The notes beneath the pieces are model-generated. The model searched no databases. It was not told where the DNA came from and was given only the letters and a program-made list of their open reading frames with translations. Below, one piece after another: positions 37,560 through 61,706 of a stretch of 64,000 nt of DNA (position 1 is the first letter of the stretch; every line of letters starts with the position of its first letter). Source of the stretch: Massilia sp. YIM B02763 (GTDB taxonomy: Bacteria > Pseudomonadota > Gammaproteobacteria > Burkholderiales > Burkholderiaceae_D); contig NZ_JASNRD010000001.1 of the NCBI RefSeq assembly GCF_030412015.1, positions 124,001-188,000 of the forward strand, in the 5' to 3' direction. Both the position numbers and the translations under genes were made by a program.

Positions 37560-37600
37560 GGTATCGTTGATGAAGAAATCGATTTCACCATAACGATACC
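37560..37600. promoter_or_regulatory. Nested palindromes upstream of the GH9 gene
   Basis: GGTATCGTT (37560-37568) and AACGATACC (37592-37600) form a perfect 9-bp inverted repeat. Almost exactly at its centre lies the perfect 12-bp palindrome GAAATCGATTTC (37575-37586). The repeat ends where AGGAGA (ribosome-binding site) begins, so it may work as an operator or as an mRNA hairpin. Confidence 0.6.
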
Positions 37601-37610
37601 AGGAGACCGC

Positions 37611-39341
37611 ATGATCCCTTCCCGTCCGCGCCTGCTCGCCGCGTGCGCCTTGCTGCTCGGCGCCGCCGAGGCCACCCACGCGGCCCATGCCGCCGACGCC
37701 ATCCAGGTCAACCAGCTGGGCTTCCTGCCCGGTTCCCGAAAGCTCGCGATGGTACCGGCGACGGCGGCCGGGCGCTTCCAGGTGAAGGATGCCGCCGGCA
37801 AGGTCGTGCTCGAGGGCCCGCTGGGCAAGGCGGCGACGTGGGACGCGTCCGGCCTCGCCGTGCGCACGGCCGACCTGTCGGCCCTGCGCGCGGCCGGTAC
37901 CTACCGCATCGCCGTGGCCGGCGTGCCCGATTCCACGCCATTCCCGATATCGCCGGACGCCTACCGTCTCCTCGACGCCGGCGCCATCCGCGCCTATACG
38001 CACAACCGCGCCGGCATCGCGCTCGATGCGCGCGTGGCCGGCGCCTGGGCGCGCCCGGCCGGCCATCCCGACGACCGGGTCCTCGTCCACCCGTCGGCCG
38101 CCTCCGCCAAGCGTCCTGCCGGCACCGTCATCGCCAGCCCGAAAGGCTGGTACGACGCCGGCGACTACAACAAATATGTCGTCAACTCGGGCATCAGTAC
38201 GTACACGCTGCTGGCCGCCTACGAGCACTTCCCGGCGTGGTTCGACAAGCTTGCGCTCGACCTGCCGGAAAGCGGCAACGGCCTGCCCGACCTCGTCAAC
38301 GAAACGCTGTGGAACCTGGACTGGCTGGCCACCATGCAGGACCCCGGGGACGGCGGCGTGTACCACAAGCTGACCAACTTGTCGTTCGACGGCATGGTGA
38401 TGCCCGACAAAGCGACGGCGCCGCGCTACGTGGTGCAGAAGACGACGGCGGCCGCCCTCGACTTCGCCGCCACGCTGGCCGCGGCCAGCCGCGTGCTTGC
38501 GCGCTTCGACGGCAAGGCGCCGGGACGTTCGCAGCGCTGGCTTGCCCAGGCGGAAAGCGCATGGCGCTGGGCCGTCGCCCACCCCGCCGTGCGCTACCGC
38601 CAGCCGGCCGACGTCAAGACGGGGGAATACGGCGACGACAAGCTGGACGACGAATTCGCCTGGGCCGCCGCCGAACTGCTGGCCGCCACGGGCAAGGCCG
38701 AATACCGGGATCCGGCCCAGGCGGCCCAGGCGGCCGGCAGCGCGCGCAAGACGGAACCCGACTGGGGCGACGTGCGCGCCCTCGGCTGGATCACGCTCGC
38801 CGGCCAGCAGGAACGGCTGCCCGAGGATGCGGCGGCGGCGCGGCGCCAGATCGTGGCGGCCGCGGACACGCTGCTGGCGCGCTGGCAGGCATCGCCCTAC
38901 CGCCTGGCGATGGCCGGCAAGGACTTCATCTGGGGCAGCAATGCCGTCGTGCTGAACCAGGGCGTGATGCTGGTGCAGGCTTACCGCATCACGGGCAAGC
39001 GCGACTATCTCGACGCGGCCCAGTCCGCGCTCGACTACACGCTGGGTCGCAATCCACTAGCGGTCTCGTACGTGACGGGCTTCGGCACCCGTTCCGCCAT
39101 GCATCCGCACCACCGCCCGTCGGTGGCCGACGGGATTGCCGCGCCGGTGCCGGGCTGGCTGGTGGGCGGCCCCAATCCGGGCCAGCAGGACGCGAAGGAT
39201 TGCAAGGCGGCGTACGCGGCGCAGGCGCCGGCGCTGTCCTGGCTGGACGACGCGTGCAGCTATGCGAGCAACGAGGTGGCGATCAACTGGAATGCGCCGC
39301 TCGTGTACGTGGCGGCGGCGTTGCAGGTGCTGGAACGCTGA
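37611..39341 (+). CDS. GH9 endoglucanase/cellulase, secreted
   Basis: A 576-residue protein with signal peptide (cleavage near AHAAD, about 27), an N-terminal CelD_N Ig-like domain (about 30-105; QVNQLGFLPGSRKLA) and the (alpha/alpha)6 GH9 domain. Catalytic features: WYDAGDYNKYVVNSG with Asp182/Asp185 (base), TGFGTRSAMHPHHRPS, and the acid Glu555 in SYASNEVAINWNAPLVY. GH9 enzymes cut beta-1,4-glucan chains, and some are active on xyloglucan or mixed-linkage glucan. It sits at the left edge of the xyloglucan locus. AGGAGA lies 5 nt upstream of the start. Confidence 0.93.
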   Translation: MIPSRPRLLAACALLLGAAEATHAAHAADAIQVNQLGFLPGSRKLAMVPATAAGRFQVKDAAGKVVLEGPLGKAATWDASGLAVRTADLSALRAAGTYRIAVAGVPDSTPFPISPDAYRLLDAGAIRAYTHNRAGIALDARVAGAWARPAGHPDDRVLVHPSAASAKRPAGTVIASPKGWYDAGDYNKYVVNSGISTYTLLAAYEHFPAWFDKLALDLPESGNGLPDLVNETLWNLDWLATMQDPGDGGVYHKLTNLSFDGMVMPDKATAPRYVVQKTTAAALDFAATLAAASRVLARFDGKAPGRSQRWLAQAESAWRWAVAHPAVRYRQPADVKTGEYGDDKLDDEFAWAAAELLAATGKAEYRDPAQAAQAAGSARKTEPDWGDVRALGWITLAGQQERLPEDAAAARRQIVAAADTLLARWQASPYRLAMAGKDFIWGSNAVVLNQGVMLVQAYRITGKRDYLDAAQSALDYTLGRNPLAVSYVTGFGTRSAMHPHHRPSVADGIAAPVPGWLVGGPNPGQQDAKDCKAAYAAQAPALSWLDDACSYASNEVAINWNAPLVYVAAALQVLER

Positions 39342-39350
39342 CCTGGAAAC

Positions 39351-39438
39351 CGTCGTCCCTGCGAAGGCAGGGACCCAATGTTGCTGGCGCCGCGTTGGCG
39401 CATACGGAAACCGGGTCCCTGCCTGCGCAGGGACGACG
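39351..39438. repeat. Inverted pair of interspersed hairpin repeats
   Basis: Copy 1 at 39351-39378 has GTCCCTGC (39355-39362), loop GAAG, GCAGGGAC (39367-39374). Copy 2 at 39413-39438 has GTCCCTGC, loop CTGC, GCAGGGAC and faces the other way. Together they fill the gap between the convergent GH9 and CE2 genes, and probably end transcription from both sides. The same element recurs at 43523-43601 and 53099-53126. Confidence 0.8.
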
Positions 39439-39459
39439 TTGGTCAAGTTCGCGCTGTCT

Positions 39460-40548
39460 CTACCACCCCATCTTCTGCTTGATGAACGCCGTCAGCTTCT
39501 GCGCGTTCTGCTGGTGCTGGAACACGCGCGGGTGATGACCATAGCCCGTGAACGGGAAGAACACCGTGTCGATGCGCTTGTCCCCGTCTTCCTTGCGCAT
39601 GCGCTCCACCGCCGTCTTCACGTAGCCGGGCCATGGGGAGCCAGGCCGCGTGGCGTCCATGCTGCCCAGCGCGCACACGATGTAGGCGTTCGGGTAGAGC
39701 TGGCGCACGCGCGTGACGAACTTGCGGTAGGCGGCGATGCGGCCCTCGTCGTCCGGCTCCGGCTGCAGCTTGTGGTCGCGGCCGATGAGCCAGGAGTCGT
39801 TCTGCATCAGGTTGACGACGACCACGTCCGGCGTCCAGCGCTTGAAGTCCCACTGCGTGTCGTTGTCGCCGACGGCACTGAGCTGGTCGTAGAAGTCCGG
39901 CATGGTGAACGGGAACCAGCTGATCATCACACCGATGCCGCTCTGTGTCGTCATGTGCAGTTCCGCGTTCAGCTTGCGCGCCGTGATGGCCGCGTACGAC
40001 AGGTAGCTGTTCTTGTCGCGCTTGACGGCATCGTCGCCGTTGAACGGCGCCTCGTTGCCCATGCCGCTCGTGATCGAGTCGCCGAAGAATTCGATATGGC
40101 GCTTCGGGCGCGGCGGCGGCGCCAGCAGGGTCGCGCCGTCGTCCAGCGCCAGGCCGCGGAACGTGGTCGTCCCCTCCTCGCCCTCGGTGCGCTTGAAGAT
40201 CAGGAAGCTGTGCTTGCCAGGCGCAAGGCCTTGCGCGACCTCGTAGGTCTGGCTGCCCTTGGCGGCCTGCAGGATCAGCGGGCTCGCGTCCTGGCCGTCG
40301 ATGATCACGTTGAAGTAATTCAGGCCACGCTCGTCGTCCAGCGTCACGGACAGCGAGGTGCCCGTGAAGTTGCCGGCGATCTGGGTCGCGGGCCAGGAGA
40401 TGACGGGCGCCTGCGGGTCGGCGAAGTCGATGCGGCCCGTGTATTGCAGGTTCTTGTCGCTCGGTGCGACTTGCGTGGCCGCGAAGGCGGAACCGGCGTA
40501 CAGCAGGCCCGCCAGCAGCGCGGCGCAGGTGTTCAGGGTAGTCTTCAT
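39460..40548 (-). CDS. CE2-family acetylesterase (SGNH), secreted
   Basis: A 362-residue protein with signal peptide (cleavage after AFA, residue 23), an N-terminal beta-jelly-roll (about 30-140) and a C-terminal SGNH hydrolase domain. The nucleophile is Ser158 in FFGDSITSG; the oxyanion Asn is in NLMQNDSW; the catalytic His is in GYGHHPRVFQH (about 339). CE2 enzymes remove O-acetyl groups from xylan, glucomannan and related glycans. Next to GH31, GH35 and GH74 genes its likely job is deacetylating xyloglucan side chains so that galactosidase can work. AAGGAA precedes the start. Confidence 0.88.
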   Translation of the reverse strand: MKTTLNTCAALLAGLLYAGSAFAATQVAPSDKNLQYTGRIDFADPQAPVISWPATQIAGNFTGTSLSVTLDDERGLNYFNVIIDGQDASPLILQAAKGSQTYEVAQGLAPGKHSFLIFKRTEGEEGTTTFRGLALDDGATLLAPPPRPKRHIEFFGDSITSGMGNEAPFNGDDAVKRDKNSYLSYAAITARKLNAELHMTTQSGIGVMISWFPFTMPDFYDQLSAVGDNDTQWDFKRWTPDVVVVNLMQNDSWLIGRDHKLQPEPDDEGRIAAYRKFVTRVRQLYPNAYIVCALGSMDATRPGSPWPGYVKTAVERMRKEDGDKRIDTVFFPFTGYGHHPRVFQHQQNAQKLTAFIKQKMGW

Positions 40549-40560
40549 GCTATTCCTTCG

Positions 40561-40592
40561 AAGTGAACAACCCGGCCGCCTGCGCGACCGGG
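40561..40592 (-). terminator. Probable terminator after the GH31 gene
   Basis: On the minus strand CCCGGTCGC pairs with GCGGCCGGG (one G-T pair) around GCAG at 40571-40592, followed by TTGTTCACTT. It lies in the 63-base gap before CE2, so CE2 may have weaker or separate expression. Confidence 0.6.
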
Positions 40593-40611
40593 CTGCGTTG
40601 CCATCTTGCGA

Positions 40612-43491
40612 TTACAGCTTGATCGTCACCGGCTTGCCGTCGTAGTCGACGGTCTTGTCGGCCGCATCCAGGTCCGCCGCCGGCACCACGCCCTGGCGCA
40701 GCACGCGCACCTTGAACTGGCGCTTGGCGACCATGCCCTTGTACTGGCCGGCGCGCGCGCCGATGGTCACCGTGCCCGCCTTGTCGTCGTAGCTGACGGG
40801 AATGCGGCTCGCCTCGCCGCGCTCATAGGCGTTGCTGACGCCGTCGTCCTCGTACAGGCTGGCCTGGCCGCTGGCGCCGGCGACGACCTGCAGCACGATC
40901 GGCGCATCCGGCTTCTCGTCCACGTACTGCGTCACGGGTCCCGTCGTCACGATGCTGCCCACGCGCAGGAAAACGGGAATGCGGTCGAGCGGCGCATCGA
41001 CGGCGGCCGTGGTACCGCCTTTGTGGCGCATACCCGTGTCGAAGTCGACCCAGTCGGCGCCGGCCGGGAATACCACCGCGCGCTTGCGCGCCTCGTAGCT
41101 CGTCACCGGCGCCACCATGAAGGCGGGGCCGAACATGTACTGGTCCTTGATGTCCTTGACGCGCTCGTCGTGCGGGAAGTCCATCACGAGGCCGCGCATC
41201 ATCGTGCCCGAGTTGTAGTGGGTGTCAGCCGCCATCGTGTAAATATAGGGCATCAGCTGGTAGCGCAGCTTCAGGTAACGGACCAGATTGTCGCGCATGG
41301 CCGCGTCGTCGCCGGCGATATTGTAGATCTCGCGCTTGACGACTTCGCCGTGTGAACGGAACAGCGGCGAGAACGCGCCGAACTGGAACCAGCGCCAGTT
41401 CAGTTCACGCCATTCGCGCATGTCTTCCGGCTTGGCCTGGTTCGACGTCGTCGCGCGGTTCTCCTGGGCCGAGCCCACGTCGCCGCTCTGGAAGCGGTTT
41501 TCCTGCGCATAGCCGCCGATGTCGTGGGTCCAGTTCGGAATGCCCGACATCGACATGTTCACGCCCGACGCGATCTGGTCGTACAAGTTGTTCCAGCGGC
41601 CCGCCGTGTCGCCGCTCCAGACGGCCGTGGAATTGCGCTGGATGCCGGCGAAGCCCGAGCGCGACAGGATGAACTGGCGCGTATCCGGCTGGTCGCGGCG
41701 CAGGTGCGCGACCATGCCGCCCGAGTGCACCAGGCTGTAGGGATTGAAGGTGATCTCGCCGGGGCCGTAGACGGTGGGGCCGATCAGCTTCTTGAAGTCT
41801 TCCAGGCGCGAGTTCGACAGCACGTCCGGTTCCGTATTGTCCATCCACCAGGCGTCGAAGCCCAGGTCCACCACCTTCTTGATCTGGCGGTAGTAGATGT
41901 CGCGCGCTTCCTGCGTGTACGGATCGTAGTGGCTGTTCTTGTAGCCGGGGCCGACCCAGTCCAGCGCGCCGTCCTCCACGTTCTTCGTCCACATGTATCC
42001 CTTGGACGCCAGTTCCTTGTAGTTCGCCGTATTGGCGTAGAACTTGCCCCAGATGGAGATCATGATGCGGGCGTGCTGCTTGTGCACGGCGTCGACCATG
42101 CCTTTCGGATCCGGGAAGCGGACCTTGTCGAAGTCGTGCGAACCCCAGCCGTCTTCCGGCCAGTAGAACCAGTCCTGCACGATGTTATCGAGCGGCCAGC
42201 CGCGCTTGCGGTACTCGGCCACCGTGTCGAGCAGCTGCTGCTGGGTCTCGTAGCGCTGGCGCGATTGCCAGAAGCCGTACGCCCACTTGGGCATCATCGG
42301 CGCCTGGCCCGTCAGGGTGCGGTAGCCGGCGATCACGCGGTCCATGCTGTCGGCGCTGATCACGTAGTAGTTGATCGCCTCGGCGATCTCGGACGACATC
42401 GTCAGCGAATGGCGTTCCGGCGCGGGCAGCGGGTCGTTGTGGGTCATCGCCACCATGCCGCCCGACGCCTTCCATTCCAGGTGCAGCTTGACCGGCTTGT
42501 CCTTCTCGAACTTCACCTCGAAGTTGTGGTACCACGGGTTCCAGCCCTGGCGCCACACGTCCATGACCTGCTTGCCGTCGATGGACAGCGTGGCATAGTC
42601 CGAGGAATACAGCTGCATCTTGTGCACGCCTGCCTTCGGGCTCGCCATGGCGCCGTCCCAGACGACCTTGACGTCCTTGCCCGCCAGGTCCTTCATGGCG
42701 GGCAGTTCCTTCGGCCAGTATTCCGCCAGGTCCTTCAGGTACTGGTAGCTGATGTCCTTTTCCTGGCGCGTCAGCGCCAGCTTGCCGTCGATATAGTAGC
42801 GCGCCGTCAGGCCGCCGGGCTTGCCGTCGGCGTCCGTCAGCGTCAGGTCGCGCGACAGCCAGGCATAGGGCTTGGGATCGCCGAATCGGCTGATGCCGTT
42901 GTTGTCCCACAGGACGCCGTAGTTCTTGTCCGAGACGACGAAGGGCACGGCCGCGATCATATTGTGCTGCTGCAGCAGCACGTCCTCGCCGTTGTAGTTC
43001 ATCTGGGCGTTCTGGTGCTGGCCCAGGCCGTAGTAGGCGTCCTTCGTGCCGTGGTTGAAGCCCTGCTTGATCGCCAGGTAGGGCTTGCCGCCCACCGTGA
43101 CGGGCGCCATCGCTTCCGATGCCTGCGCCAGGAAGACCTTGCCGGCGGCGTCGAAGAAGCGCACCTGCCCGTCCTTGAGCGACACTTCGGCGGCGATCTT
43201 CGCCGCCTTCAGGCGCACGGTGCCGGCGCTGCCGCCTTTCGCATCCACGCTGAAGCTGCACCCGCACGGCTTGGCCACCGTCATCAGCGAGGGCGTCAAG
43301 GCCTTGCCGGCCTGGTCGAGTTTCAGCACCTGGACGATGTTATCACTCATCAGGTTCAGGCGCACCACCTTGGCGGCGCCCGCGTCCGGGGTCACCTCGA
43401 TGCCGGTGGCGGTTTTCTGGTAGCTGCCGGCCAGGGCCTGGCTGCCGGCGGCCAGCAGCATGGCGGCTGCGGCGAGTCGGGTCAATCGCAT
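40612..43491 (-). CDS. GH31 alpha-xylosidase with PA14 insertion
   Basis: A 959-residue secreted protein; ATG 43491 has AAGGAGA 8 nt upstream and a signal peptide ends near ALAG (residue 22). A PA14 domain is inserted at about 225-370 in the N-terminal beta-sandwich, as in the Cellvibrio xyloglucan alpha-xylosidase Xyl31A. Nucleophile Asp551 in WWMDNTEPD and acid/base Asp628 in WSGDTAGRW are intact. The family position and neighbours (GH35, TonB receptor, GH74) argue for removal of non-reducing-end alpha-1,6-xylose from xyloglucan oligosaccharides, which feeds the xylose genes on the right. Confidence 0.92.
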   Translation of the reverse strand: MRLTRLAAAAMLLAAGSQALAGSYQKTATGIEVTPDAGAAKVVRLNLMSDNIVQVLKLDQAGKALTPSLMTVAKPCGCSFSVDAKGGSAGTVRLKAAKIAAEVSLKDGQVRFFDAAGKVFLAQASEAMAPVTVGGKPYLAIKQGFNHGTKDAYYGLGQHQNAQMNYNGEDVLLQQHNMIAAVPFVVSDKNYGVLWDNNGISRFGDPKPYAWLSRDLTLTDADGKPGGLTARYYIDGKLALTRQEKDISYQYLKDLAEYWPKELPAMKDLAGKDVKVVWDGAMASPKAGVHKMQLYSSDYATLSIDGKQVMDVWRQGWNPWYHNFEVKFEKDKPVKLHLEWKASGGMVAMTHNDPLPAPERHSLTMSSEIAEAINYYVISADSMDRVIAGYRTLTGQAPMMPKWAYGFWQSRQRYETQQQLLDTVAEYRKRGWPLDNIVQDWFYWPEDGWGSHDFDKVRFPDPKGMVDAVHKQHARIMISIWGKFYANTANYKELASKGYMWTKNVEDGALDWVGPGYKNSHYDPYTQEARDIYYRQIKKVVDLGFDAWWMDNTEPDVLSNSRLEDFKKLIGPTVYGPGEITFNPYSLVHSGGMVAHLRRDQPDTRQFILSRSGFAGIQRNSTAVWSGDTAGRWNNLYDQIASGVNMSMSGIPNWTHDIGGYAQENRFQSGDVGSAQENRATTSNQAKPEDMREWRELNWRWFQFGAFSPLFRSHGEVVKREIYNIAGDDAAMRDNLVRYLKLRYQLMPYIYTMAADTHYNSGTMMRGLVMDFPHDERVKDIKDQYMFGPAFMVAPVTSYEARKRAVVFPAGADWVDFDTGMRHKGGTTAAVDAPLDRIPVFLRVGSIVTTGPVTQYVDEKPDAPIVLQVVAGASGQASLYEDDGVSNAYERGEASRIPVSYDDKAGTVTIGARAGQYKGMVAKRQFKVRVLRQGVVPAADLDAADKTVDYDGKPVTIKL

Positions 43492-43620: not shown

Positions 43621-45297
43621 TCAGTACGTGCCCATCCGGACCTTGAGCACCGTCGGCGTCGCCGGCAGGTTCAGGCCGTAATCCGTCTGGTCGCCGTTCC
43701 AGTTGCGCTCCATGACCCAGTTGCCCCTGGCGTCGAAGTGTCCCTCCTCCACGCGCGCGAACATCGCGGGCTTGCCGGCATTGGCGCCCGTGCCGGACAG
43801 CTTGACGCGGATCTGCTGGCCGATCAGCACGAACTCGTTCGGTCCCGTCTGCGCGATGGCCACGCCGCCGGACGGCTGCTCGGTGCCGGCCATGTACTCG
43901 TTCTTGTCGCGCAGGTATTCGCGCTCGCCGAACTGGAATTCGCGGAACGACAGCGTCGCCTTCCAGCCGTCCATCTCGACGTGCTGGGCCGCGCGGTCGT
44001 CGCCTTCGGACACGCCGTACGTGCGGCCTTCGAACGCCCACTTCGCCCACTGGCGCTGCAGCGGCGCGAACACGCCGTAGATCTTCGCGAACGGCTCGAC
44101 CATGCGCTTGTCGGTGAACTTCGCGCCGAGCGGATAGTTGCTGTACTCCGCATAGTCGATGCCGAACGGCGCCACGCCCAGCGCGCCCTTGCCGATGATC
44201 TGGTAGACGTAGCGCGCGTAGCCGGCGGCATTGCCCATCTCCGGCACCATCAGCGCATTGTCCGGGCGCTGGAACTGGCGCAGGATGGCGTCGACCTTGT
44301 TCGACTCCGGCATGTAGATGTCCGGGCCGGCGAACTCGATGTGCGGCGCCGCGGCGCGCCAGATGCCGAGCACGTCGTGGGTCGGGCCGCCGCTGGCGAA
44401 GTCCTTCTTCCACGGCGCGGCCTGCTCGCCCGGCTGCACGCCGGCGGGGTCGCGCAGGGCGTTGTTGACGAACATCGGCAGGTCGTAGACGGCGCGGCCG
44501 GCCTTGGCGATTTCCTCGATGTAGCTGGCGATCGCCCAGGCGTGGAAGTACTGGTCCGCGTACTCGCCGTAGACTTCGGCCCACGTGCCCTGCCGCGGAT
44601 GCGATGCGGGCGGCTTCTGGCGGGCCAGCACGGCGGCCGGCACCGGCTGGCGGAACGCGCTTTCCGCACGCGCGCCATAGTCGCGCGCGACGCCATAGGT
44701 GCCGACCTCGTTCTCGACCTGCACCATGATGATGGTCTTTTTATCGCCGTCGATGCGCTTGATGTGCTCCATCAGCGCGACGAACGCCTTCTTGTCGGCC
44801 GCCAGCGTGGCTTCGCCGTGCGGCGAATGGCTGTAGCTGGTCTTGCCGTCCTTGTCGATCATGCGCGGGAACCGTGCATTGTCGAACTTGACCCATTCCG
44901 GCGTGTAGGCGGCGCCCGTGTTCTTCCAGGTGCCGAACCACAGCAGCACCAGCCGCATGTCGAGCTTGCGCGCTTCCTGGACCAGGGTGTCGACGTAGGA
45001 GAAATCGAACGTGCCTTCGCGCGGTTCGATCTGCTCCCAGGCGACGGGGATCTCGAGCGTGTTGGCGTGGGCATCCTTCAGCGCGGCCCAGACCTTGGGC
45101 AGCGCGGCGGGATAGTTGCTGGAGTTGTGGGCTTGTCCGCCCAGGATCAGATAAGGGGCGCCATCGACCATCAGGGCGTGGCGCCCGTCCTTGGCGACGA
45201 TGCGGGGCATCTCGGTGGCCGCGTGGGCGGCGGCGAAGGCCAGTGCGACGCACAGGCCGAGCAGGCGCGTAGCGGTTTTCTTGGCAGGTTTCTTCAT
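43621..45297 (-). CDS. GH35 beta-galactosidase, secreted
   Basis: A 558-residue protein from ATG 45297; signal peptide ends near AAHAA (residue 27). The GH35 barrel has ILGGQAHNSSNYPAAL, acid/base Glu197 in IIMVQVENEVGTYG and nucleophile Glu353 in NALMVPEMGNAAGY. A C-terminal beta domain of the DUF5597 type follows (about 390-555). It resembles the Cellvibrio xyloglucan galactosidase Bgal35A and probably removes beta-1,2-galactose from the xyloglucan side chain, exposing xylose for the GH31 enzyme. It lies between a strong terminator and a repeat-filled gap. Confidence 0.92.
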   Translation of the reverse strand: MKKPAKKTATRLLGLCVALAFAAAHAATEMPRIVAKDGRHALMVDGAPYLILGGQAHNSSNYPAALPKVWAALKDAHANTLEIPVAWEQIEPREGTFDFSYVDTLVQEARKLDMRLVLLWFGTWKNTGAAYTPEWVKFDNARFPRMIDKDGKTSYSHSPHGEATLAADKKAFVALMEHIKRIDGDKKTIIMVQVENEVGTYGVARDYGARAESAFRQPVPAAVLARQKPPASHPRQGTWAEVYGEYADQYFHAWAIASYIEEIAKAGRAVYDLPMFVNNALRDPAGVQPGEQAAPWKKDFASGGPTHDVLGIWRAAAPHIEFAGPDIYMPESNKVDAILRQFQRPDNALMVPEMGNAAGYARYVYQIIGKGALGVAPFGIDYAEYSNYPLGAKFTDKRMVEPFAKIYGVFAPLQRQWAKWAFEGRTYGVSEGDDRAAQHVEMDGWKATLSFREFQFGEREYLRDKNEYMAGTEQPSGGVAIAQTGPNEFVLIGQQIRVKLSGTGANAGKPAMFARVEEGHFDARGNWVMERNWNGDQTDYGLNLPATPTVLKVRMGTY

Positions 45298-48608: not shown

Positions 48609-48636
48609 ATGCCCATCCGGGCATGAAATCGATTAC
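48609..48636. promoter_or_regulatory. Hairpin plus AAATCGATT motif upstream of the receptor
   Basis: ATGCCC (48609-48614) and GGGCAT (48619-48624) form a hairpin immediately followed by GAAATCGATTAC (48625-48636). The latter shares nine bases with the palindrome upstream of GH9. The element lies about 150 bases before the receptor start and also just beyond the GH74 stop. Confidence 0.4.
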
Positions 48637-48673
48637 GCGCACCGCTAAAGGTCGTCATCGCGGGTCTTTCCTG

Positions 48674-51047: not shown

Positions 51048-51061
51048 TGTTCGCGCTAACA
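51048..51061 (+). promoter_or_regulatory. XylR/LacI-type operator candidate 1
   Basis: TGTTCGCGCTAACA is a near-palindrome matching 12 of 14 bases of TGTTAGCGCTACCA, which I recall as the Caulobacter XylR operator upstream of xylX. It is about 205 bases before the GH74 start. Confidence 0.55.
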
Positions 51062-51306
51062 ACCGCGACGCATGGAATGTCGTTAACTTCGTGCATTTGC
51101 TTAACAAAAAACGGTGAAATCGAGTTCAGCACATCAAATTACCCGCCAGTGCCCGTTAAGTTGTTGTATTTAAGTGACATGAGACGCGTATGTTTGCGAG
51201 TAAGTTACCTGACATCAACATAGGAAGTGCCCGGAAACGCGAGATTTCGTGAGCTTCCTTTACGGACCGGACGGTTTCCGCACCGGATGCTCGCCGAAAT
51301 CGTGCA

Positions 51307-51324
51307 ATCGATTTCAAAATCGAT
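51307..51324. promoter_or_regulatory. 18-bp palindrome with AAATCGAT arms
   Basis: ATCGATTT (51307-51314) and AAATCGAT (51317-51324) are inverted around CA. The same core appears upstream of GH9 and of the TonB receptor, so it could be the site of a second regulator shared by xyloglucan genes. Confidence 0.45.
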
Positions 51325-51364: not shown

Positions 51365-51379
51365 TGGTAGCGCTTAACA
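51365..51379 (-). promoter_or_regulatory. XylR/LacI-type operator candidate 2
   Basis: Read on the minus strand, TGTTAAGCGCTACCA equals TGTTAGCGCTACCA with one inserted A. It lies about 95 bases before the dehydrogenase ATG and overlaps a -35-like TTAACA (51374-51379), a position suited to repression. Confidence 0.6.
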
Positions 51380-53098: not shown

Positions 53099-53126
53099 CG
53101 TCGCCCCTGCCTGCGCAGGGGCGACG
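53099..53126. repeat. Interspersed hairpin repeat, third locus
   Basis: CGTCGCCCCTGC and GCAGGGGCGACG pair over 12 bp around CTGC. It is the same element as at 39351 and 43523, with compensating base changes in the stem, and lies between convergent genes. Confidence 0.75.
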
Positions 53127-54926: not shown

Positions 54927-54942
54927 GCTCATTTACTCCTGC

Positions 54943-55815
54943 TCACTGCTGCAGCCGCAGCGCATGCTGCGGCAATCCGGCCACGTCGAGCCGGAACGTA
55001 AACAATCCGCCGGCCAGCGGTTGCGCGGCCAGTTCGTCGGGCGACAAGCCCTTGCGCGCCGTCGTCGCGTACACCGTGCGCAGGTCGTCGCCGCCGAACG
55101 CCAGCTTGGTGACGTTGGCGCACGGGAAGCGCACCTCCCCGGCCTTGCGGCCCTGCGCATCGAAACGGTCGATGCGCCAGCCGCCGAAGGTCGCCACCCA
55201 CAGGTGGCCTTCGGCGTCGACGGCCATCCCGTCCGGATAGCCGCCGTCGGCGATCTCGACGAACACGCGCTTGTTCGACAGCGCACCGTCCGGCGCGACG
55301 TCGAACGCGTACACGCGCTTGTCGAGCGTGTCCGTATGATACAGCGTACGGCCGTCCGGGCTCACGGCCGGGCCGTTCGTGATGACGTAGCCGTCGTCCA
55401 TGGTGCGCACGTGCGCGCCGTCGAAGCGGTACAGCGCGCCGCTGGCGGCCTCCTCGGCGTCGTGCATCGAGCCGAACCACAGCATGCCTTGGGCATCGAC
55501 GTGGCCGTCGTTGAAACGGTTGTGTTCGAGGTCCGCCTCGACCTTCGCCAGCGGCACGAAGTCGCCACTCTCGGGCAGGAAGCGGTACAGGCCGTCGTCC
55601 AGCGAGCACACCATGCCGCCGTCGGCGGAAGGCACGATGAAGCTCACCTGGCCCGGCGCCGGCCAGGTGCGGCGGCCGCTGCCGTCCGGAGCGCAGCGCA
55701 GGATGCGCTTGCCCTTGATGTCGACGAACCAGACCCAGGGGCCGCGCGCATCCCACAGCACGCCCTCCCCCAGCAGCGCCTGGACGTCCCAGATGCAGGT
55801 GGGTTCGATGCTCAT
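54943..55815 (-). CDS. xylC: SMP-30/gluconolactonase-family lactonase (xylonolactonase)
   Basis: A 290-residue six-bladed propeller lactonase. Family metal-site segments are LLGEGVLWD (Glu), EHNRFNDGHVDAQG (Asn/Asp), VITNGPAVSPDG and GGYPDGMAVDAEG (Asp). It opens D-xylono-lactone to D-xylonate, the step after XylB. The start at 55815 overlaps the xylB stop by 4 bases, and the stop lies 16 bases before the dehydratase start, so it is firmly in the operon. Lactone identity is inferred from neighbours. Confidence 0.88.
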   Translation of the reverse strand: MSIEPTCIWDVQALLGEGVLWDARGPWVWFVDIKGKRILRCAPDGSGRRTWPAPGQVSFIVPSADGGMVCSLDDGLYRFLPESGDFVPLAKVEADLEHNRFNDGHVDAQGMLWFGSMHDAEEAASGALYRFDGAHVRTMDDGYVITNGPAVSPDGRTLYHTDTLDKRVYAFDVAPDGALSNKRVFVEIADGGYPDGMAVDAEGHLWVATFGGWRIDRFDAQGRKAGEVRFPCANVTKLAFGGDDLRTVYATTARKGLSPDELAAQPLAGGLFTFRLDVAGLPQHALRLQQ

Positions 55816-56603
55816 GCGCCGTACCATCCCGCATCGACGAAGTATTCGCGGCCGCTGCAGGCGCGCGCATTGTTCGACGCCAGGAACAGCGCCAGCGCTG
55901 CCACGTCCTGCATCTCCACGCGCGCCGGGACGCACTGGCCGGCCAGGATGCGCGCCTCTTCTTCCGGGTTGTGCCACAGCTTTTCCTGGCGCGGCGTGCG
56001 CACGGCGCCCGGGACGATGGTGTTGGCGCGGATGCCGAACTTGCCCAGTTCGCGCGCCATGCCGCGGGTCATGCCCTCGATGGCCGCCTTGGCCGTCATG
56101 TACAGGTCGAGCTGGGTGTGCGGCAGGTGCCAGGAGATGGAGCCGAAGTTCAGCAGCACGCCGTGGCCGCGCTGCTTCATGCCGGGGATCACGGCCTGGC
56201 TGCAGAAGAACTGGTGGCGCAGGTTGACGTTCATGCGGCTTTCCCAGTAGGCCGGCGTCACGTCCTCGATCTCGTGGCGGTCGTCGTTGGCCGCGTTGTT
56301 GAGCAGGATGTCGACGCCGCCCGCCTCCGCCTCGATGGCGGCGAAGGTGGCTTTCAGCGCGTCGATGTCGGTCAGGTCGCAGCGGACGAACTTGGGGGCG
56401 GCGGCGCTGCCGGCGAGCGACTGCTCCAGTGCGCGCGAGGCTTCCTCGGCGATGTCGAGGAACCAGACGCGGGCGCCCTGGGCGGCGAAGGCGGCGGTCA
56501 GCTCGCCGCCGATGCCGCTGCCGCCGCCGGTGATGACGACGCGCTTGCCCTTCAGGTCCGGATAGGTGGCGTAGACGAATGCTTCTTGCTTGGAGTGGGA
56601 CAT
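55812..56603 (-). CDS. xylB: D-xylose 1-dehydrogenase (SDR)
   Basis: A 263-residue classical SDR. Cofactor motif VVITGGGSGIGG (about 22-33), Ser155 in NFGSISWHL and YxxxK at Tyr168-Lys172 in LYMTAKAAIEG. The segments NNAANDDRHEIEDVT, AYWESRMNVNLRH and GREYFVDAGWYG closely resemble Caulobacter XylB. It oxidises D-xylose to D-xylonolactone with NAD+, in the cytoplasm, opening the Weimberg route. It is 30 bases downstream of xylX and overlaps xylC. Confidence 0.92.
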   Translation of the reverse strand: MSHSKQEAFVYATYPDLKGKRVVITGGGSGIGGELTAAFAAQGARVWFLDIAEEASRALEQSLAGSAAAPKFVRCDLTDIDALKATFAAIEAEAGGVDILLNNAANDDRHEIEDVTPAYWESRMNVNLRHQFFCSQAVIPGMKQRGHGVLLNFGSISWHLPHTQLDLYMTAKAAIEGMTRGMARELGKFGIRANTIVPGAVRTPRQEKLWHNPEEEARILAGQCVPARVEMQDVAALALFLASNNARACSGREYFVDAGWYGA

Positions 56604-56633
56604 GGAATGTATTGGTCTCGAATGGGGGCTGAT

Positions 56634-57803
56634 TCAGGATGCGGCGGCCAGCAGGCCGCGTCGCGCCAGGTTCTCGTAGAGGGCGCGCACGCCGAAGGTC
56701 CAGGGTTCGATGGCGTCGCTGCGCTCGACGGTGTTGACGAGCGTGCCCAGCGACGGGGTCGAGATGCTGACGCGGTCGCCCATGTGGTGGGTGAAGCCGC
56801 CGCCCTGCGCGTCGCGGTCCTTGATCGGCGAGAACATCGTGCCCAGGAACAGCATGAAGCCGTCCGGGTACTGGTGGTGGCGGGCGCAGGTCTGGGCGAC
56901 GAGGTCGAGCGGATCGCGGCTGATCTCGCGCATGAAGCTCGCGCCGGCCAGTTCGAAGCCGTCGTCGACGCCTTCGATCAGCATGCGCACTTCGAGTTCG
57001 CGCACCGTGTCGATGGTGAACGTGCCGTCGAACAGGCGGATGAACGGGCCGATCGCGCAGGAGCCGTTGTTGTCCTTGGCCTTGCCCAGCAGGAGCGCGC
57101 TACGGCCTTCGATGTCGCGCAGGTTGACGTCGTTGCCGAGCGTGGCGCCGACGGCCTCGGCACGGCTGTTCACGGCCAGCACGATTTCCGGTTCCGGGTT
57201 GTTCCAGTGCGAGTTCGGGTGCAGGCCGACGGGCACGCCGTGGCCCACGGAGGACATCGGCTGCGACTTGGTGAACACTTCCGCGTCCGGGCCGATGCCC
57301 ACTTCCATGTACTGCGACCACAGGCCGCGCGCCGTCAGCTCGGCCTTCAGGCGCATCGCCGCCTCGCCGCCCGGCTCGAGCTCCGAGAGGTCGGTGCCGA
57401 TCGAGGTCTGCAGCTGGGCGCGCAGCGCGTCGGCGCGCGACGGGTCGCCCTTGGCCTGTTCCTCGATCACGCGCTCGAGCAGGCTGACGGCGAAGGTGAC
57501 GCCGGCGGCCTTGATGGCCTGCAGGTCGCACGGGGCCAGCAGGCGCACGGCGCCGCCCTGGCCATTCGCGAGGTCCGCGGCCAGGCCCAGGTCCTCGCCG
57601 TCCGCGTCGCGCACGATGGCCAGCAGGTCGGCGCGCTCGAACAGCGCGGACACGGTCGGGGCGTGACGGGTGATGTCGACCACGCGACCCTTGCGCACGG
57701 CGACCACGGCGGGGCCGTCGATGGGCGCGCCGCGCCAGACGCGGCCGACCAGCAAGGCTTGCTCGAGGTCCTCGGGCAGCGGATTGGCTTGATGTGCTGT
57801 CAT
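56634..57803 (-). CDS. xylX: 2-keto-3-deoxy-D-xylonate dehydratase (FAH family)
   Basis: A 389-residue fumarylacetoacetate-hydrolase-fold protein of XylX length. Typical pieces are VGIGPDAEVFTKSQPMSSVG, NNPEPEIVLAVNSRAEAVGA (metal-binding Glu pair), LGNDVNLRDIEGRSALLLGK and FGTMFSP-like LFLGTMFSPIKDRD. It dehydrates 2-keto-3-deoxy-xylonate (or its arabinonate isomer) to 2-oxoglutarate semialdehyde. It lies 14 bases after the GH3 gene and 30 before xylB. Confidence 0.9.
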   Translation of the reverse strand: MTAHQANPLPEDLEQALLVGRVWRGAPIDGPAVVAVRKGRVVDITRHAPTVSALFERADLLAIVRDADGEDLGLAADLANGQGGAVRLLAPCDLQAIKAAGVTFAVSLLERVIEEQAKGDPSRADALRAQLQTSIGTDLSELEPGGEAAMRLKAELTARGLWSQYMEVGIGPDAEVFTKSQPMSSVGHGVPVGLHPNSHWNNPEPEIVLAVNSRAEAVGATLGNDVNLRDIEGRSALLLGKAKDNNGSCAIGPFIRLFDGTFTIDTVRELEVRMLIEGVDDGFELAGASFMREISRDPLDLVAQTCARHHQYPDGFMLFLGTMFSPIKDRDAQGGGFTHHMGDRVSISTPSLGTLVNTVERSDAIEPWTFGVRALYENLARRGLLAAAS

Positions 57804-57817
57804 GTCGTCTCTCTTGG

Positions 57818-60205
57818 TTATGCCACCGTCAGCGTCGTCTTCTTGAGGTTGACGCTGTCCGGACCGGCGAAGATGGTGAAGGTGCCCGGCTCGACGGCGC
57901 GTTTCATGTCCGCGCCGTAGAAGGCCAGGTCGCCCGGCTTGATGTCGAAGGTGACGGTGCGCTGCTCGCCCGGCTGCAGGGTCACGCGCGCGAAACCCTT
58001 CAGTTCCAGCAGCGGCCGCGTGACGGAGCTGACGTCGTCGCGGATGTAAAGCTGCACGACTTCGTCGCCGGCCACGCGGCCGACGTTCTTCACGTCGACC
58101 TGCACGCGCGTGCTGCCGTTGGCAGCAATGCGTGCCTGCTCCAGGCGCGGAGCGGAGATGTCGAAACGGGTATAGGACAGGCCGTAGCCGAACGGGTATA
58201 GCGGCGTCGTGACGCCGTCGATGTAGCCGCGCCGGGTGCTCGGCTTGCGGTTGTAGTACATGGGCAGCTGGCCCGTGTTGCGGGCGATCGTCACGGGCAG
58301 CTTGCCGCCCGGGTTGGCCCGGCCGAACAGCAGGTCGGCCACCGCATGGCCCGTTTCCTGGCCCAGGTACCAGCATTCGAGCAGCGCGCCGGCGCGCTCG
58401 GCCAGCAGGTTGGCCGACAGCGGGCGCCCGTTCAGCAGCACCACGACGGTGGGCTTGTTCAGCGCGAAGATGGCGCGCGCCAGGTCGTTCTGCTGGCCCA
58501 TCAGGTCCAGCGTCGTGCGGTCGCCCAGGTGGTTGTCGGCCCAGGCCTCGCGCGAGGTCTGCTCGTTGTCGCCCAGGACCATGACGATGGTGTCGGCCGA
58601 CTTGGCCGCCTCGACGGCGTCGGCGATCAGGCGCGCGTTGACTTCCGGCTTGGTGAACTCGATCTCGTCCTTGCCCCAGACGTGGCCTTCCGTGATGCGC
58701 ACGCCTTCCGAATAAGCCAGCTGGAAGCCCTGCGCCTTCGCCTCGGCCTGCAGGCCTTCGTACACGGAGACGACGTGGCGCGGCACGTCCGAATAGCCGC
58801 CGATGGGCGTGTCCTTCGCATGGGTGCCCAGCAGCAGCACCTTGCCGACCTTCTTGCCGTCCAGCGGCAGCAGGTTGCGCTCGTTCTTGAGCAGCACGGC
58901 GCTCTTCACCGCTGCCTGGCGCGCCAGCGCGACGGCGTCCGGCGTGGCCGTCAGCCCGTCGGCGCGGCCGGCATCGGCGTACGGGTTCTCGAACATGCCG
59001 GCCTCGAACTTCAGCTTCAGGATGCGGCGCACGGCGGCATCGATCTCGGCGACGGACACCTTGCCCTCGGCGACCAGCTCGCCCAGCTTCGCATAGCCCT
59101 TCGGGTCCGGGGTCTCGACGTCCACGCCGGCCTTGACGGCCTGGCGCGCTGCCTCCTTGACGTCCGCCGCCAGGTGGTGGCGCGTGACCAGTTCGTCGAC
59201 GGCCATGTAGTCGGACACGGTGACGCCCTCGAAGCCCCACTCCTTGCGCAGCACGTCGGTCAGCAGCCAGCGGTTGGCGTGCGAGGGAATGCCGTCGATC
59301 TCGTTATACGAGGGCATGACGGCGGCGATCTTCGTCTCGCGCACGATCTTCTCGAACGGCGGGAAGAAGTCCTCGCGCAGCAGGCGCTCGCCCACGTTGG
59401 CCGGGCCGATATTGGTGCCGCTCTCCGGCTGGCCGTGGCCCGTCATGTGCTTGAGCGTGGCGTACACCTTGTCCGGCGCCAGCGGCAGCGTCTCGCCGGA
59501 GAAGCCGATGACGGCGGCCTTGCCCATGACGCCGCACAGGTGCGGATCCTCGCCGTAGGTTTCCTCGATGCGGCCCCAGCGCGGCTCGCGCGCCACGTCG
59601 ACGACGGGCGCCAGCGCCAGGTTGGTGCCGCGCGCGCGCATCTCGCGCGCCGCCACGGAAAACACCTTCGTGACGAGGTCGGGATCGAAGCTGGAAGCCA
59701 GGCCGATCGCCTGCGGGAAACTGGTCGCGTCGCGCGCGACGTAGCCGTGCAGCGCTTCCTCGTGCATGAAGACGGGAATGCCCAGGCGCGTGCGTTCCAT
59801 GGCCCACTTCTGCACGGCGTTGACGTAGTCGGCCGTTTCCTTCGGCCCGCGGTTGGCGGTGGAGCCATCGTTGCCGGCGGCGCTGGCCGCGCCCAGCTGG
59901 CGGTCCGACGGGCGCGCGAACATGCCGATCCCGTGCGGGTAGGCGGCGGCCGCCTTGGCCGGATCGAAGCTCGTGTCAGGGTGCTGCAGCGCGCCCTTGC
60001 CGATCCAGACGCACTGCATCTGGGCGATCTTCTCTTCCAGCGTCATGCGCTTCAACAAGTCGTCGACGCGGGCGCCGACGGGGGCGCCGGATTGCTTGTA
60101 GAGGGGCGTTGCGCCTGCCGCGGCGGCGAAGGCGCCGCCTGGTACGACGGCCAGGCCGGCGATGCCGCCGACCGAGGCCAGGAATTCCCTGCGTTTCAAT
60201 GCCAT
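57818..60205 (-). CDS. GH3 beta-glycosidase with Tat signal, first gene of the xyl operon
   Basis: A 795-residue protein. The N-terminus KRREFLASVGGIAGLAVV is a Tat-type signal. The GH3 barrel has LKHMTGHGQPESGTN and nucleophile Asp332 in GVTVSDYMAVDEL; the alpha/beta sandwich follows (VLLLGTHAKDTPIGGYSD; VMVLGDNEQTSREAW), and a C-terminal fibronectin-like domain ends the chain. GH3 enzymes release terminal beta-glucose or beta-xylose. Here it could free glucose from trimmed xyloglucan units or xylose from xylo-oligosaccharides; sequence alone does not decide. Its cotranscription with xylXBCD ties sugar release to xylose oxidation. Confidence 0.9.
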   Translation of the reverse strand: MALKRREFLASVGGIAGLAVVPGGAFAAAAGATPLYKQSGAPVGARVDDLLKRMTLEEKIAQMQCVWIGKGALQHPDTSFDPAKAAAAYPHGIGMFARPSDRQLGAASAAGNDGSTANRGPKETADYVNAVQKWAMERTRLGIPVFMHEEALHGYVARDATSFPQAIGLASSFDPDLVTKVFSVAAREMRARGTNLALAPVVDVAREPRWGRIEETYGEDPHLCGVMGKAAVIGFSGETLPLAPDKVYATLKHMTGHGQPESGTNIGPANVGERLLREDFFPPFEKIVRETKIAAVMPSYNEIDGIPSHANRWLLTDVLRKEWGFEGVTVSDYMAVDELVTRHHLAADVKEAARQAVKAGVDVETPDPKGYAKLGELVAEGKVSVAEIDAAVRRILKLKFEAGMFENPYADAGRADGLTATPDAVALARQAAVKSAVLLKNERNLLPLDGKKVGKVLLLGTHAKDTPIGGYSDVPRHVVSVYEGLQAEAKAQGFQLAYSEGVRITEGHVWGKDEIEFTKPEVNARLIADAVEAAKSADTIVMVLGDNEQTSREAWADNHLGDRTTLDLMGQQNDLARAIFALNKPTVVVLLNGRPLSANLLAERAGALLECWYLGQETGHAVADLLFGRANPGGKLPVTIARNTGQLPMYYNRKPSTRRGYIDGVTTPLYPFGYGLSYTRFDISAPRLEQARIAANGSTRVQVDVKNVGRVAGDEVVQLYIRDDVSSVTRPLLELKGFARVTLQPGEQRTVTFDIKPGDLAFYGADMKRAVEPGTFTIFAGPDSVNLKKTTLTVA

Positions 60206-60501
60206 CGTTGTCTCCCTGCTCTTTTAGTCAGTCGCAGGAGGCAGTCCGCCCGGGATCGCTGGGAACGGCGGGGACAGGCATGCACGACGGACGTGCGCCT
60301 GCGACGCCGTCGCGATAGGTCGGGTGAAGCATGGAATGTCTCCTGTCGTTTTTATGTGTCGCGGCCGATTCCAACATCTGGATAACAGGAATGTTACCGC
60401 AACCATTCGAGTCTATACGGCTGGGCGAGGCGTTGTCAACGAATTATTCCGGCAGGGAGAAACCGCGCATCGCCGCTCCAGCAATGGCGACGCGCACTGG
60501 C
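60206..60501. other. Promoter region of the GH3-xylXBCD operon
   Basis: 296 bases between the lacI-type gene and GH3, both on the minus strand. It holds an operator-like site (60392-60405) and an overlapping inverted repeat TAACA-GGAA-TGTTA (60383-60396). I see no further gene. Confidence 0.5.
60392..60405 (+). promoter_or_regulatory. XylR/LacI-type operator candidate 3
   Basis: TGTTACCGCAACCA matches 12 of 14 bases of TGTTAGCGCTACCA. It lies about 190 bases before the GH3 start. The adjacent TAACA-GGAA-TGTTA palindrome could be an alternative or additional site. Confidence 0.55.
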
Positions 60502-61620
60502 TCAGCGGGCGCGGTCCTGCTTGGCACTACGCGCGGGCAGGCGCGCCGGCGGCCGGATGCGCGGCGCGGCGTCGGACTGGCGGCGTACCAGCTCGAAGTC
60601 CATGCGCACCTGTTCCGGCTCGGCGGCGCCGCCCTCGCGCTGGGCGCGCACGCGCCGCACCAGCGCCTGCACGGCCTCGCGTGCCATCTCGGCGATGGGC
60701 TGGCGCACGGTGGTCAGTTCGGGCCAGATGGTGGTGGCGAGCGCCGTATCGTCGAAGCCCGTCACGGTCAGGTCGCCCGGCACGTCCAGGCCCAGGCGGT
60801 GGGCGACGGCGACGGTGGCGGCGGCCATGTCGTCGTTGCTGGCGAAGATGGCGGTGGGACGCTCGTCCAGGGCGAGCAGCTGTTCGGCCGCGTCCAGGCC
60901 GGAACGGTAGGTGAACATGCCTTGCACCACCAGTTCCTTCGACGCGTCGGCATGCTTGTCGGCGATGGCGGCGCGGTAGCCCTCCAGGCGGCGGCTGCTC
61001 GCCGTCTGGTTCGGGTGGCCGACGACGAAGCCGATGCGCTGGTGGCCCAGCGCCACCAGGTGGTGCGTCATGTGGTAGGCGGCTTCGTAGTCGTCGATGC
61101 TGACGGCGCCCACGCGCGCATCGGGCGAGCCGCACGCGACGACCACGACGGGGATGCCGGCGCCGGCGATGGCGCCGACGATCGCCTCGCTGTCGCACAG
61201 GGGCGGCGGCAGGATGATGCCGTCCAGGCCATTGCCGATCAGGCGGCGCGCATGCTCCGCCTCCTGCTCGCCCGCCTCGCACTTCTCGACGAACAGCTGG
61301 ACGTTGTTCAGGCCCGACTGGGTCAGGAGGCCAACAAGGAATTCGGACAGGTAAGCGGCGCTCGGATTACTGTACAGGAAGCCGACCCGGATCGGCTTGG
61401 ACCCGGCCAGGTTGCGCGCTTCCTGGTTCGGGGTGTAGTTCAGCGCGGCGACGGCTTCGGCCACCTTGCGCCGCGTGCTGTCGCGCACCAGGCCCTTGCC
61501 GTTCATGACGCGCGAGACGGTCATCGCCGAGACGCCGGCCAGCTTGGCGACATCGGCCATCGTGGGTTGGCCGCGCCGCTCCAGGTCGTCCTGGGTGGCT
61601 TCATCGTTGGCTTTGCTCAT
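60502..61620 (-). CDS. xylR: LacI-family regulator, probable XylR
   Basis: A 372-residue repressor. The LacI helix-turn-helix is at about 19-65 (PTMADVAKLAGVSAMTVSRV; hinge NYTPNQEARNLAG), followed by a periplasmic-binding-protein-like sensor domain (IRVGFLYSNPSAAYLSEFLV; AIFASNDDMAAATVAVAHR; TGFDDTALATTIWPELTTVR). It is adjacent to the GH3-xylXBCD operon. Four operator-like sites lie upstream of itself, GH3, the dehydrogenase and GH74. The inducer is expected to be xylose or a pathway intermediate, which is inference. Confidence 0.85.
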   Translation of the reverse strand: MSKANDEATQDDLERRGQPTMADVAKLAGVSAMTVSRVMNGKGLVRDSTRRKVAEAVAALNYTPNQEARNLAGSKPIRVGFLYSNPSAAYLSEFLVGLLTQSGLNNVQLFVEKCEAGEQEAEHARRLIGNGLDGIILPPPLCDSEAIVGAIAGAGIPVVVVACGSPDARVGAVSIDDYEAAYHMTHHLVALGHQRIGFVVGHPNQTASSRRLEGYRAAIADKHADASKELVVQGMFTYRSGLDAAEQLLALDERPTAIFASNDDMAAATVAVAHRLGLDVPGDLTVTGFDDTALATTIWPELTTVRQPIAEMAREAVQALVRRVRAQREGGAAEPEQVRMDFELVRRQSDAAPRIRPPARLPARSAKQDRAR

Positions 61621-61692
61621 CGCTCGGGGGTCCTGTATGACGTGTTATCGGGCGCAGGGCGCGCCGCTGTGTTTTCATCATCTTAACATAGG

Positions 61693-61706
61693 CGGTTGCG
61701 CTAACA
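61693..61706 (-). promoter_or_regulatory. XylR/LacI-type operator candidate 4 (autoregulation)
   Basis: Read on the minus strand, TGTTAGCGCAACCG matches 12 of 14 bases of TGTTAGCGCTACCA. It lies about 75 bases upstream of the lacI-type start, as expected for autorepression. Confidence 0.6.

Follow-up and report, generated by a model that had tools for sequence, protein, structure and literature searches.

A Massilia xyloglucan locus joined to oxidative xylose genes, with a candidate XylR/xyl-box-type switch

We analyzed a 64,000-nucleotide stretch of the genome of Massilia sp. YIM B02763 (hereafter, the window), in which positions 37611-61620 carry genes for GH9, CE2, GH31, GH35, a TonB receptor, GH74, an aldehyde dehydrogenase (ALDH), XylD, XylC, XylB, XylX, GH3, and a LacI-family regulator. 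We consider it likely that this is a xyloglucan locus that feeds xylose to the oxidative (Weimberg) pathway, with both halves tied by a XylR/xyl-box-type switch. The gene content, the key residues of GH31 and GH74, the absence of a xylose isomerase match, the operator-like sites with their conservation, and the recurrent linkage were all computed directly. The host genome is a 5.9 Mb draft of 68 contigs that is rated 100% complete.

Gene content and layout

Every frame in the locus is open and long, and the genes named in a first-pass annotation of this DNA all lie where it had placed them. The predicted products are given below, with start codons that we chose among the in-frame starts.

37611..39341, plus strand: GH9 endo-glucanase/xyloglucanase with a CelD_N domain and a signal-peptide-like N terminus (PF00759, 294 bits)
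39460..40548, minus strand: CE2 acetyl esterase (PF17996, 114 bits)
40612..43491, minus strand: GH31 alpha-xylosidase (PDB 7kmp, 990-992 bits; CjXyl31A 2xvg, 982 bits)
43621..45297, minus strand: GH35 beta-galactosidase, Bgl35A type, DUF5597 (NF051902, 508 bits, cut-off 500; CjBgl35A 5jaw, 525 bits)
45382..48468, minus strand: TonB-dependent receptor (TIGR01782, 669 bits, cut-off 310)
48674..50845, minus strand: predicted GH74 endo-xyloglucanase (top PDB match 6p2l, 606 bits)
51471..53048, plus strand: ALDH, proposed 2-oxoglutarate semialdehyde dehydrogenase (KGSADH) (PF00171, 154 bits; GQFC motif)
53145..54932, minus strand: xylD, D-xylonate dehydratase, IlvD/Edd (PDB 5oyn, 1054 bits; NF009560, 1031 bits)
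54943..55827, minus strand: xylC, xylonolactonase, SMP-30/SGL (PF08450, 262 bits)
55812..56603, minus strand: xylB, D-xylose 1-dehydrogenase, SDR (NF053674, 433 bits, cut-off 400)
56634..57803, minus strand: xylX, 2-keto-3-deoxy-xylonate dehydratase, FAH family (PF01557; PDB 9kkt, 414 bits)
57818..60205, minus strand: GH3 beta-glucosidase/xylosidase with a twin-arginine-like N terminus (PF00933, PF01915; 5z87, 635 bits)
60502..61620, minus strand: LacI-family regulator, proposed XylR (PF00356, PF13377)

Judged from sequence matches, the case for the xyloglucan half of the gene set is strong. The top PDB match of the GH9 protein is 6dht (BoGH9A, named as xyloglucan-specific), at 459 bits. Alignment of the GH31 protein to 7kmp indicates that the nucleophile, the acid/base, and the size-selecting Trp of XacXyl31 are all three retained; these residues are given as D564, D640, and W453 in PMC8245568, and by our count the 7kmp chain number is the published number plus 21. 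A PA14 match in the same protein lies under its cut-off (23.0 versus 24). Pfam by itself labels the GH74 protein as Sortilin/BNR, and further PDB GH74 entries match after 6p2l; in the alignment the protein retains an Asp that is Asp in 2cn2 and Ala in 2cn3. The receptor gene adjoins the GH35 gene of Bgl35A type. No GH95 alpha-fucosidase was found among the locus genes scanned, and one related locus (L021) has a GH95.

The assignments of XylB, XylC, XylD, and XylX are likewise strong on the family and structure matches listed above, and the locus unites the xyloglucan set with a complete set for oxidative use of xylose, as the first-pass annotation had proposed. A search for xylose isomerase (TIGR02630) found no match in the host draft genome, and the same search was positive in six of 14 control genomes. 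The sole FGGY-kinase match in the host genome falls under the xylulokinase cut-off (TIGR01312). These results agree with the earlier claim that xylose is oxidized and not isomerized in this organism. Across 195 genomes of the family, 14 have an isomerase match, 13 of them above cut-off. The only one of the 195 with both an isomerase and xylX is G193, a relative within the genus Massilia, where the isomerase gene lies about 2 kb from xylX-xylB-xylD and the two routes adjoin (G193:C22:36555-40979, the L017 region).

The weak link of the xylose half is the ALDH. Its family is certain, and 2-oxoglutarate semialdehyde is its proposed substrate. It resembles the V. harveyi-type ALDH 1eyy (473 bits, versus 59 bits for the solved KGSADH 5x5t) and scores under every NCBIfam cut-off. 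We rejected an assignment as a Caulobacter-type KGSADH, the nearest solved relatives being 1eyy and 3v4c. The Caulobacter-like genome G542 has its own ALDH within the xyl operon, and this is only a 25% match to the window ALDH. The first-pass description of a xylA-type KGSADH of the Caulobacter kind therefore does not hold as written. The enzyme falls outside the solved-KGSADH subfamily and is encoded on the strand opposite to the xyl operon. A subfamily with KGSADH types II and III lies near the V. harveyi enzyme, which would favor the proposed role. In M. terrae, a 60% ALDH and a 47% SDR lie directly before GH74, apart from the xyl operon (L015:8684-13270, L098:7469-12055); these genes possibly tie another sugar oxidation to xyloglucan.

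No inner-membrane xylose transporter is present among the locus genes. XylFGH within the window was ruled out: the gap between xylD and the ALDH gene is only 96 nt, and the best XylF match in the host genome is only 28% identical (XylG and XylH were not searched for). Loci of relatives carry XylF/XylG or a Sugar_tr MFS porter at the corresponding place. The host genome encodes a XylE-like porter on contig C1, outside the locus, preceded at about 430 nt by a xyl-box-like site, and this porter is one of two sugar porters above cut-off in the genome. Because XylF has no close match in the genome, the XylE-like porter is the best candidate for the xylose entry route. The second sugar porter matches as two overlapping pieces (G000:C9:105595-106960), which could reflect a disrupted frame or an error in the draft. 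The earlier proposal of a route from xyloglucan outside the cell to 2-oxoglutarate inside it is thus incomplete, the inner-membrane xylose carrier that it needs being absent from the locus.

On the minus strand, GH3-xylX-xylB-xylC-xylD form one run with gaps of 14, 30, -16, and 10 nt, in which GH3 is the leading gene of the xyl operon, and GH74-receptor-GH35-GH31-CE2 form another with gaps of 205, 84, 129, and 63 nt. Between the two runs is the plus-strand ALDH gene, which diverges from GH74 and converges with xylD, and GH9 is convergent onto CE2. These strands and gaps indicate at least four transcription units (GH9; GH74-receptor-GH35-GH31-CE2; ALDH; and GH3-xylXBCD, to which is added lacI with a boxed promoter of its own) and rule out a single operon. 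The wording "one unit" in the first-pass annotation is therefore too strong, and what unity the locus has rests on shared operator-like sites. Similar short inverted repeats, CCCTGC...GCAGGG, lie at 39357-39434 in the convergent GH9-CE2 gap and at 53105-53120 in the convergent ALDH-xylD gap; they may be REP-like or terminator elements.

Operator-like sites

The LacI-family regulator of the window is 61% and 53% identical to LacI proteins encoded beside xyl genes in G416 and G542, respectively, and shares with both the helix GVS(A/P)MTVSR, a XylR-type recognition helix. The published xyl-box bound by XylR is TGGTAGCGCTAACA (PMC10380989). We located sites resembling this box and a second, LacI-type box in the locus.

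37574..37587, no strand given: second-box site AGAAATCGATTTCA before GH9, 1 mismatch
48624..48637, no strand given: second-box-like site 156 nt before the receptor gene, 2 mismatches
51048..51061, no strand given: xyl-box-like TGTTCGCGCTAACA before GH74, 2 mismatches to TGGTWGCGCTAACA
51115..51128, no strand given: second-box site TGAAATCGAGTTCA in the GH74/ALDH intergenic region, 1 mismatch
51303..51316, no strand given: second-box site TGCAATCGATTTCA in the GH74/ALDH intergenic region, 1 mismatch
51365..51379, plus strand: weak xyl-box-like site with a 1-base insertion before ALDH, not kept in relatives
60392..60405, minus strand: xyl-box-like TGGTTGCGGTAACA before GH3-xylXBCD, 1 mismatch
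61693..61706, plus strand: xyl-box-like CGGTTGCGCTAACA before lacI, 1 mismatch

At up to two mismatches, TGGTWGCGCTAACA occurs at three places in the 64 kb, and all three fall in the intergenic sequence of the locus, which totals 1,869 bases; 0.27 places are expected, and three were reached in one of 200 simulations. At up to one mismatch there are two places, versus 0.0 expected. An unsupervised scan of upstream alignments returned the xyl-box as the most conserved 14-mer before GH74 (mean identity 0.84, 20 rows), before GH3 (0.986, five rows), and before lacI (0.982, eight rows). Seven of the 20 GH74 rows lack the box in the aligned stretch because another gene sits between the box and GH74. 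Among named Massilia-group loci in which an ALDH at least 76% identical lies within 10 kb of GH74, a xyl-box is present no more than 2.2 kb before GH74 in 17 of 17, versus none of the 10 other Oxalobacteraceae GH74 loci that were scanned (L036-L044, L046). Taken together, this analysis suggests that one XylR/xyl-box-type switch may serve both gene halves.

Genome-wide, a looser xyl-box pattern occurs at nine places, versus four for its reversed control. Six of the nine lie outside the locus: at genes for a GPH sugar symporter, the XylE-like porter, a TonB plug protein, a GH31, and a GH39, with one at a peptidase (subtilase) gene. In the GPH and GH31 genes the site overlaps the opening codons of the longest frame and would therefore lie before or at the true start. 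The four reversed-control places are in or beside genes for a thymidylate synthase, an integrase, an AraC/DJ-1 regulator, and a methyltransferase.

Sites like the second box (TGAAATCGATTTCA) at up to three mismatches number seven in the window, versus 0.45 expected from 20 simulations; four of the seven lie before GH9, before the receptor gene, and between GH74 and the ALDH gene (two sites), and three lie elsewhere. In the host genome, TGAAANCGNTTTCA at up to one mismatch occurs at 21 places, versus one for the control. We inspected the neighborhoods of these 21 places except C12:212430 and C35:2935; the places (for example, G000 C7:115849, C7:117561, and C20:24018) lie before or near receptor genes, an MFS gene, and two LacI genes. 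The latter two, elsewhere in the host genome, have the second box close by (L134, L138), and their products are candidates for the protein that binds it. Relatives retain second-box sites before GH74, before the gene after GH74, and sometimes before lacI. The second-box pattern is of a general LacI-family kind.

Recurrence among relatives and known systems

Among the 195 family genomes, 20 have a GH74 of at least 50% identity. We dropped G038, in which GH74 is present only as contig-edge fragments; G159 and G019 have GH74 without xylX. Both genes are present in 18 genomes. A neighborhood check suggested in the first-pass annotation, run as GH74 against xylX, placed the two genes 1.5-14.1 kb apart in eight of the 18, all within 15 kb; chance would place them within 25 kb in about 0.15 genomes, a comparison that gives no probability since the genomes are related. 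In G177, GH74 and xylX are 51 kb apart, but a GH35 gene lies 1.6 kb from xylX.

The nearest named GH74 loci are those of Massilia, and the gene order in this genus is lacI-GH3-xylXBCD ... ALDH ... GH74 ... GH35-GH31-CE2. A second order, GH74-xylX-xylB-xylD-...-receptor-GH35-GH31, is found in G040, G089, G120, and G166, which belong to a second, Duganella-like genus. Here the gap is filled by frames with XylF-, XylG-, and XylH-like starts. Among Massilia copies, a family scan confined to L025 placed XylF and XylG above cut-off and the permease below it. The gene before xylX in G040 encodes an AraC-type regulator that includes a sugar-binding-protein-like part and resembles E. coli XylR. In two of the four Duganella-like genomes, G089 and G166, another xylX copy lies elsewhere in the genome.

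Xyloglucan-type GH31 is present in nine of 398 phylum genomes, eight of which have xylX. The distance between the two genes is 3.3 kb in G416, 21 kb in G325, and 31 kb in G542, all from other classes, and exceeds 450 kb in three genomes. The G416 locus holds xylX-xylB-xylC, a Sugar_tr porter, GH31, GH35, the 61% identical LacI, and a receptor together; no xylD was found in the 39 kb fetched around it. GH74 loci were compared as the best 80 of 128, and among these none outside the Oxalobacteraceae has xylX or the ALDH gene within 10 kb, the one xylD-family match there being 30% identical.

We built an XylX tree of 36 proteins in which 11 rows were labeled as linked, with G325 (21 kb) and G542 (31 kb) left unlabeled. 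The four linked Duganella-like copies cluster with support of 89/86, separately from the Massilia copies and from the additional copies in G089 and G166. On the tree, the linked label requires six changes, at least four by starred branches, and four of 500 shuffles are as low. Given these six changes, a single origin with descent alone appears unlikely, although gains and losses are indistinguishable. The arrangement thus appears to be real, conserved, and apparently recurrent.

That xyloglucan degradation is joined to xylose catabolism is itself a known idea, because the Xanthomonas xyloglucan utilization locus (XyGUL) has it. According to PMC8245568, that locus comprises GH74, GH31, GH35, and GH95 together with an esterase and two receptors. 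Genes for xylulokinase, xylose isomerase, and an MFS porter adjoin it, and they and the XyGUL rise on xyloglucan oligosaccharides. The Massilia locus resembles it in clustering GH74, GH31, GH35, a TonB receptor, and an esterase with adjoining xylose genes. It differs in having the oxidative pathway in place of xylulokinase and isomerase, and in lacking GH95 and an MFS porter among its genes. PMC10380989 states that the isomerase gene of the XyGUL-side operon is not regulated by XylR, whereas the Massilia GH74 operon has a xyl-box-like site. The XyGUL of Cellvibrio japonicus (PMC4285296) has the same types of GH31, GH35, and TonB receptor, along with GH95, but the accessible text does not mention GH74 or xylose catabolism genes. 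The first-pass comparison to a Cellvibrio-type set should therefore be redirected, since GH74, GH31, GH35, receptors, and adjoining xylose genes are together closer to the Xanthomonas XyGUL.

The xylose half resembles Caulobacter xylXABCD, as described in PMC7198004 and PMC10380989, in its XylX, XylB, XylC, and XylD homologues, its LacI regulator, and its operator type, and the recognition helix of the window LacI is the same as in the Caulobacter-like genome G542. Unlike in Caulobacter, the Massilia ALDH is non-orthologous and encoded on the opposite strand, the first gene of the operon is GH3, and the xyloglucan operon shares the box. We found no description of an oxidative xylose route beside a xyloglucan locus, or of a xyl-box at a xyloglucan operon, in open-licence literature searched mostly by title. 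The first-pass annotation knew of no description of this coupling as one unit; in Xanthomonas the coupling is known with the isomerase route.

Proposed mechanism and alternative explanations

Enzyme specificities, compartments, transport, the ligand, binding, repression, and induction are all inferred in the following scheme. GH74 and GH9 would cut xyloglucan, CE2 would take off acetyl groups, and the TonB receptor would import the oligosaccharides. In the periplasm, GH35 would remove galactose, GH31 xylose, and GH3 glucose. Xylose would then enter the cytoplasm via a carrier encoded elsewhere, perhaps the XylE-like porter on C1, and would be converted to 2-oxoglutarate by XylB, XylC, XylD, and XylX together with the ALDH. 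By analogy with XylR, the LacI protein would leave its operators when xylose is present, turning on lacI, GH3-xylXBCD, and GH74-receptor-GH35-GH31-CE2 together, and the second LacI-type box may add another sugar signal at GH9, the receptor gene, and GH74.

Several observations weigh against this scheme. At up to three mismatches, the xyl-box occurs seven times in the window, versus 5.03 in shuffled sequence, and 20 of 100 shuffles reach seven. Both the W in the TGGTWGCGCTAACA pattern and the looser genome pattern were fixed after the window had been viewed, and the genome-wide count of nine versus four is weak by itself. A conserved xyl-box before the ALDH gene was dropped as a candidate, none being found in the upstream alignment (21 rows, best block 0.70). 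G018 is linked, yet it has no box at up to two mismatches before GH74. M. terrae (G182/L098) also has no GH74 box, and its xyl operon is on another contig, with the box present at xylX and lacI. The GH74 box of the window lies just 5' of a -35-like hexamer and does not cover the promoter core, which leaves simple repression in doubt. The substrate of the ALDH, finally, is a proposed one.

A further set of observations bears on whether the two halves are simply ordinary neighbors by descent, the xyl genes being a general xylose operon that also serves xylose from xylan and has no special coupling to xyloglucan. We regard this as unlikely. GH74 and xylX are apart in nine of the 18 relatives that have both, two with the genes far apart on one contig and seven with them on different draft contigs ("apart" being more than 50 kb or other contigs; G177 would be a tenth by GH74 distance). 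G149 carries lacI-GH3-xylXBCD and the ALDH gene without a GH74 match, so the xyl set also stands alone, and G193 likewise has xyl genes and no GH74 match. The looser xyl-box sites before GH39 and a second GH31 would fit a general xylose regulon. Neighborhood by descent does not, however, account well for the xyl-box found before GH74 in all 17 named linked loci and in none of the 10 others, for gene orders that differ between two genera and another class, or for the second xylX copy that G089 and G166 carry in the xyloglucan locus beside the one elsewhere.

The remaining alternatives concern substrates. It is doubtful, more so than descent alone, that the ALDH acts on galactarate, glucarate, or an unrelated aldehyde while the semialdehyde is oxidized by an enzyme encoded elsewhere. 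Its low score to 5x5t relative to the V. harveyi enzyme, its position under all NCBIfam cut-offs and on the strand opposite to the xyl operon, and the lack of a tblastn match to it within the xyl genes of the Duganella-like loci would be expected on that account, but the gene stays with the xyl operon in Massilia loci, including that of G149 without GH74. Least probable, in our judgment, is that the oxidative set handles another xyloglucan sugar or a mix (L-arabinose, galactose) in place of D-xylose. XylD does also pass the cut-off of a broad dehydratase subfamily, and the ALDH and SDR before GH74 in M. terrae would be in keeping with such a role. Set against this, XylB scores above the D-xylose 1-dehydrogenase cut-off, XylD scores 1054 bits against 5oyn versus 459 against the L-arabinonate dehydratase 9evv, and both the regulator and the box are of XylR type.

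A xyloglucan locus feeding the oxidative xylose pathway would be of interest on several counts. Sugar polymer loci are mostly described as far as the monosaccharide, and here the central route of xylose is genetically tied to one polymer; that route leads to 2-oxoglutarate without passing through the pentose phosphate pathway. The locus would offer a natural, testable case of one catabolic branch replacing another behind a set of conserved enzymes. It would also supply a candidate xyloglucan-use regulon, in a genus that is common on roots and in soil, and genes ready to be used for making 2-oxoglutarate-derived products from xyloglucan. A broader reading, which we hold tentatively and rate at somewhat below even, is that xyloglucan loci are modular: their xylose route would have been exchanged, being isomerase-based in Xanthomonas and oxidative here, and the oxidative version would have been joined to them repeatedly (Massilia, the Duganella-like lineage, and another proteobacterial class). 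The Massilia polymer operon would then read two sugars simultaneously, one via XylR at the xyl-box and the other via a second LacI at the TGAAATCGATTTCA box, making the polymer-to-2-oxoglutarate chain a two-signal switch. In the Duganella-like lineage, a separate xylX-xylB-xylD set is retained, with a transporter of its own and a regulator of a different type.

Elsewhere in the window, positions 5907-9890 contain genes for a three-subunit molybdopterin/FAD/2Fe-2S dehydrogenase of xanthine or aldehyde dehydrogenase type, and positions 32548-35467 contain genes for an ABC ATPase, an NMT1-type binding protein, and a TauD dioxygenase, a set resembling those for organosulfonate uptake.

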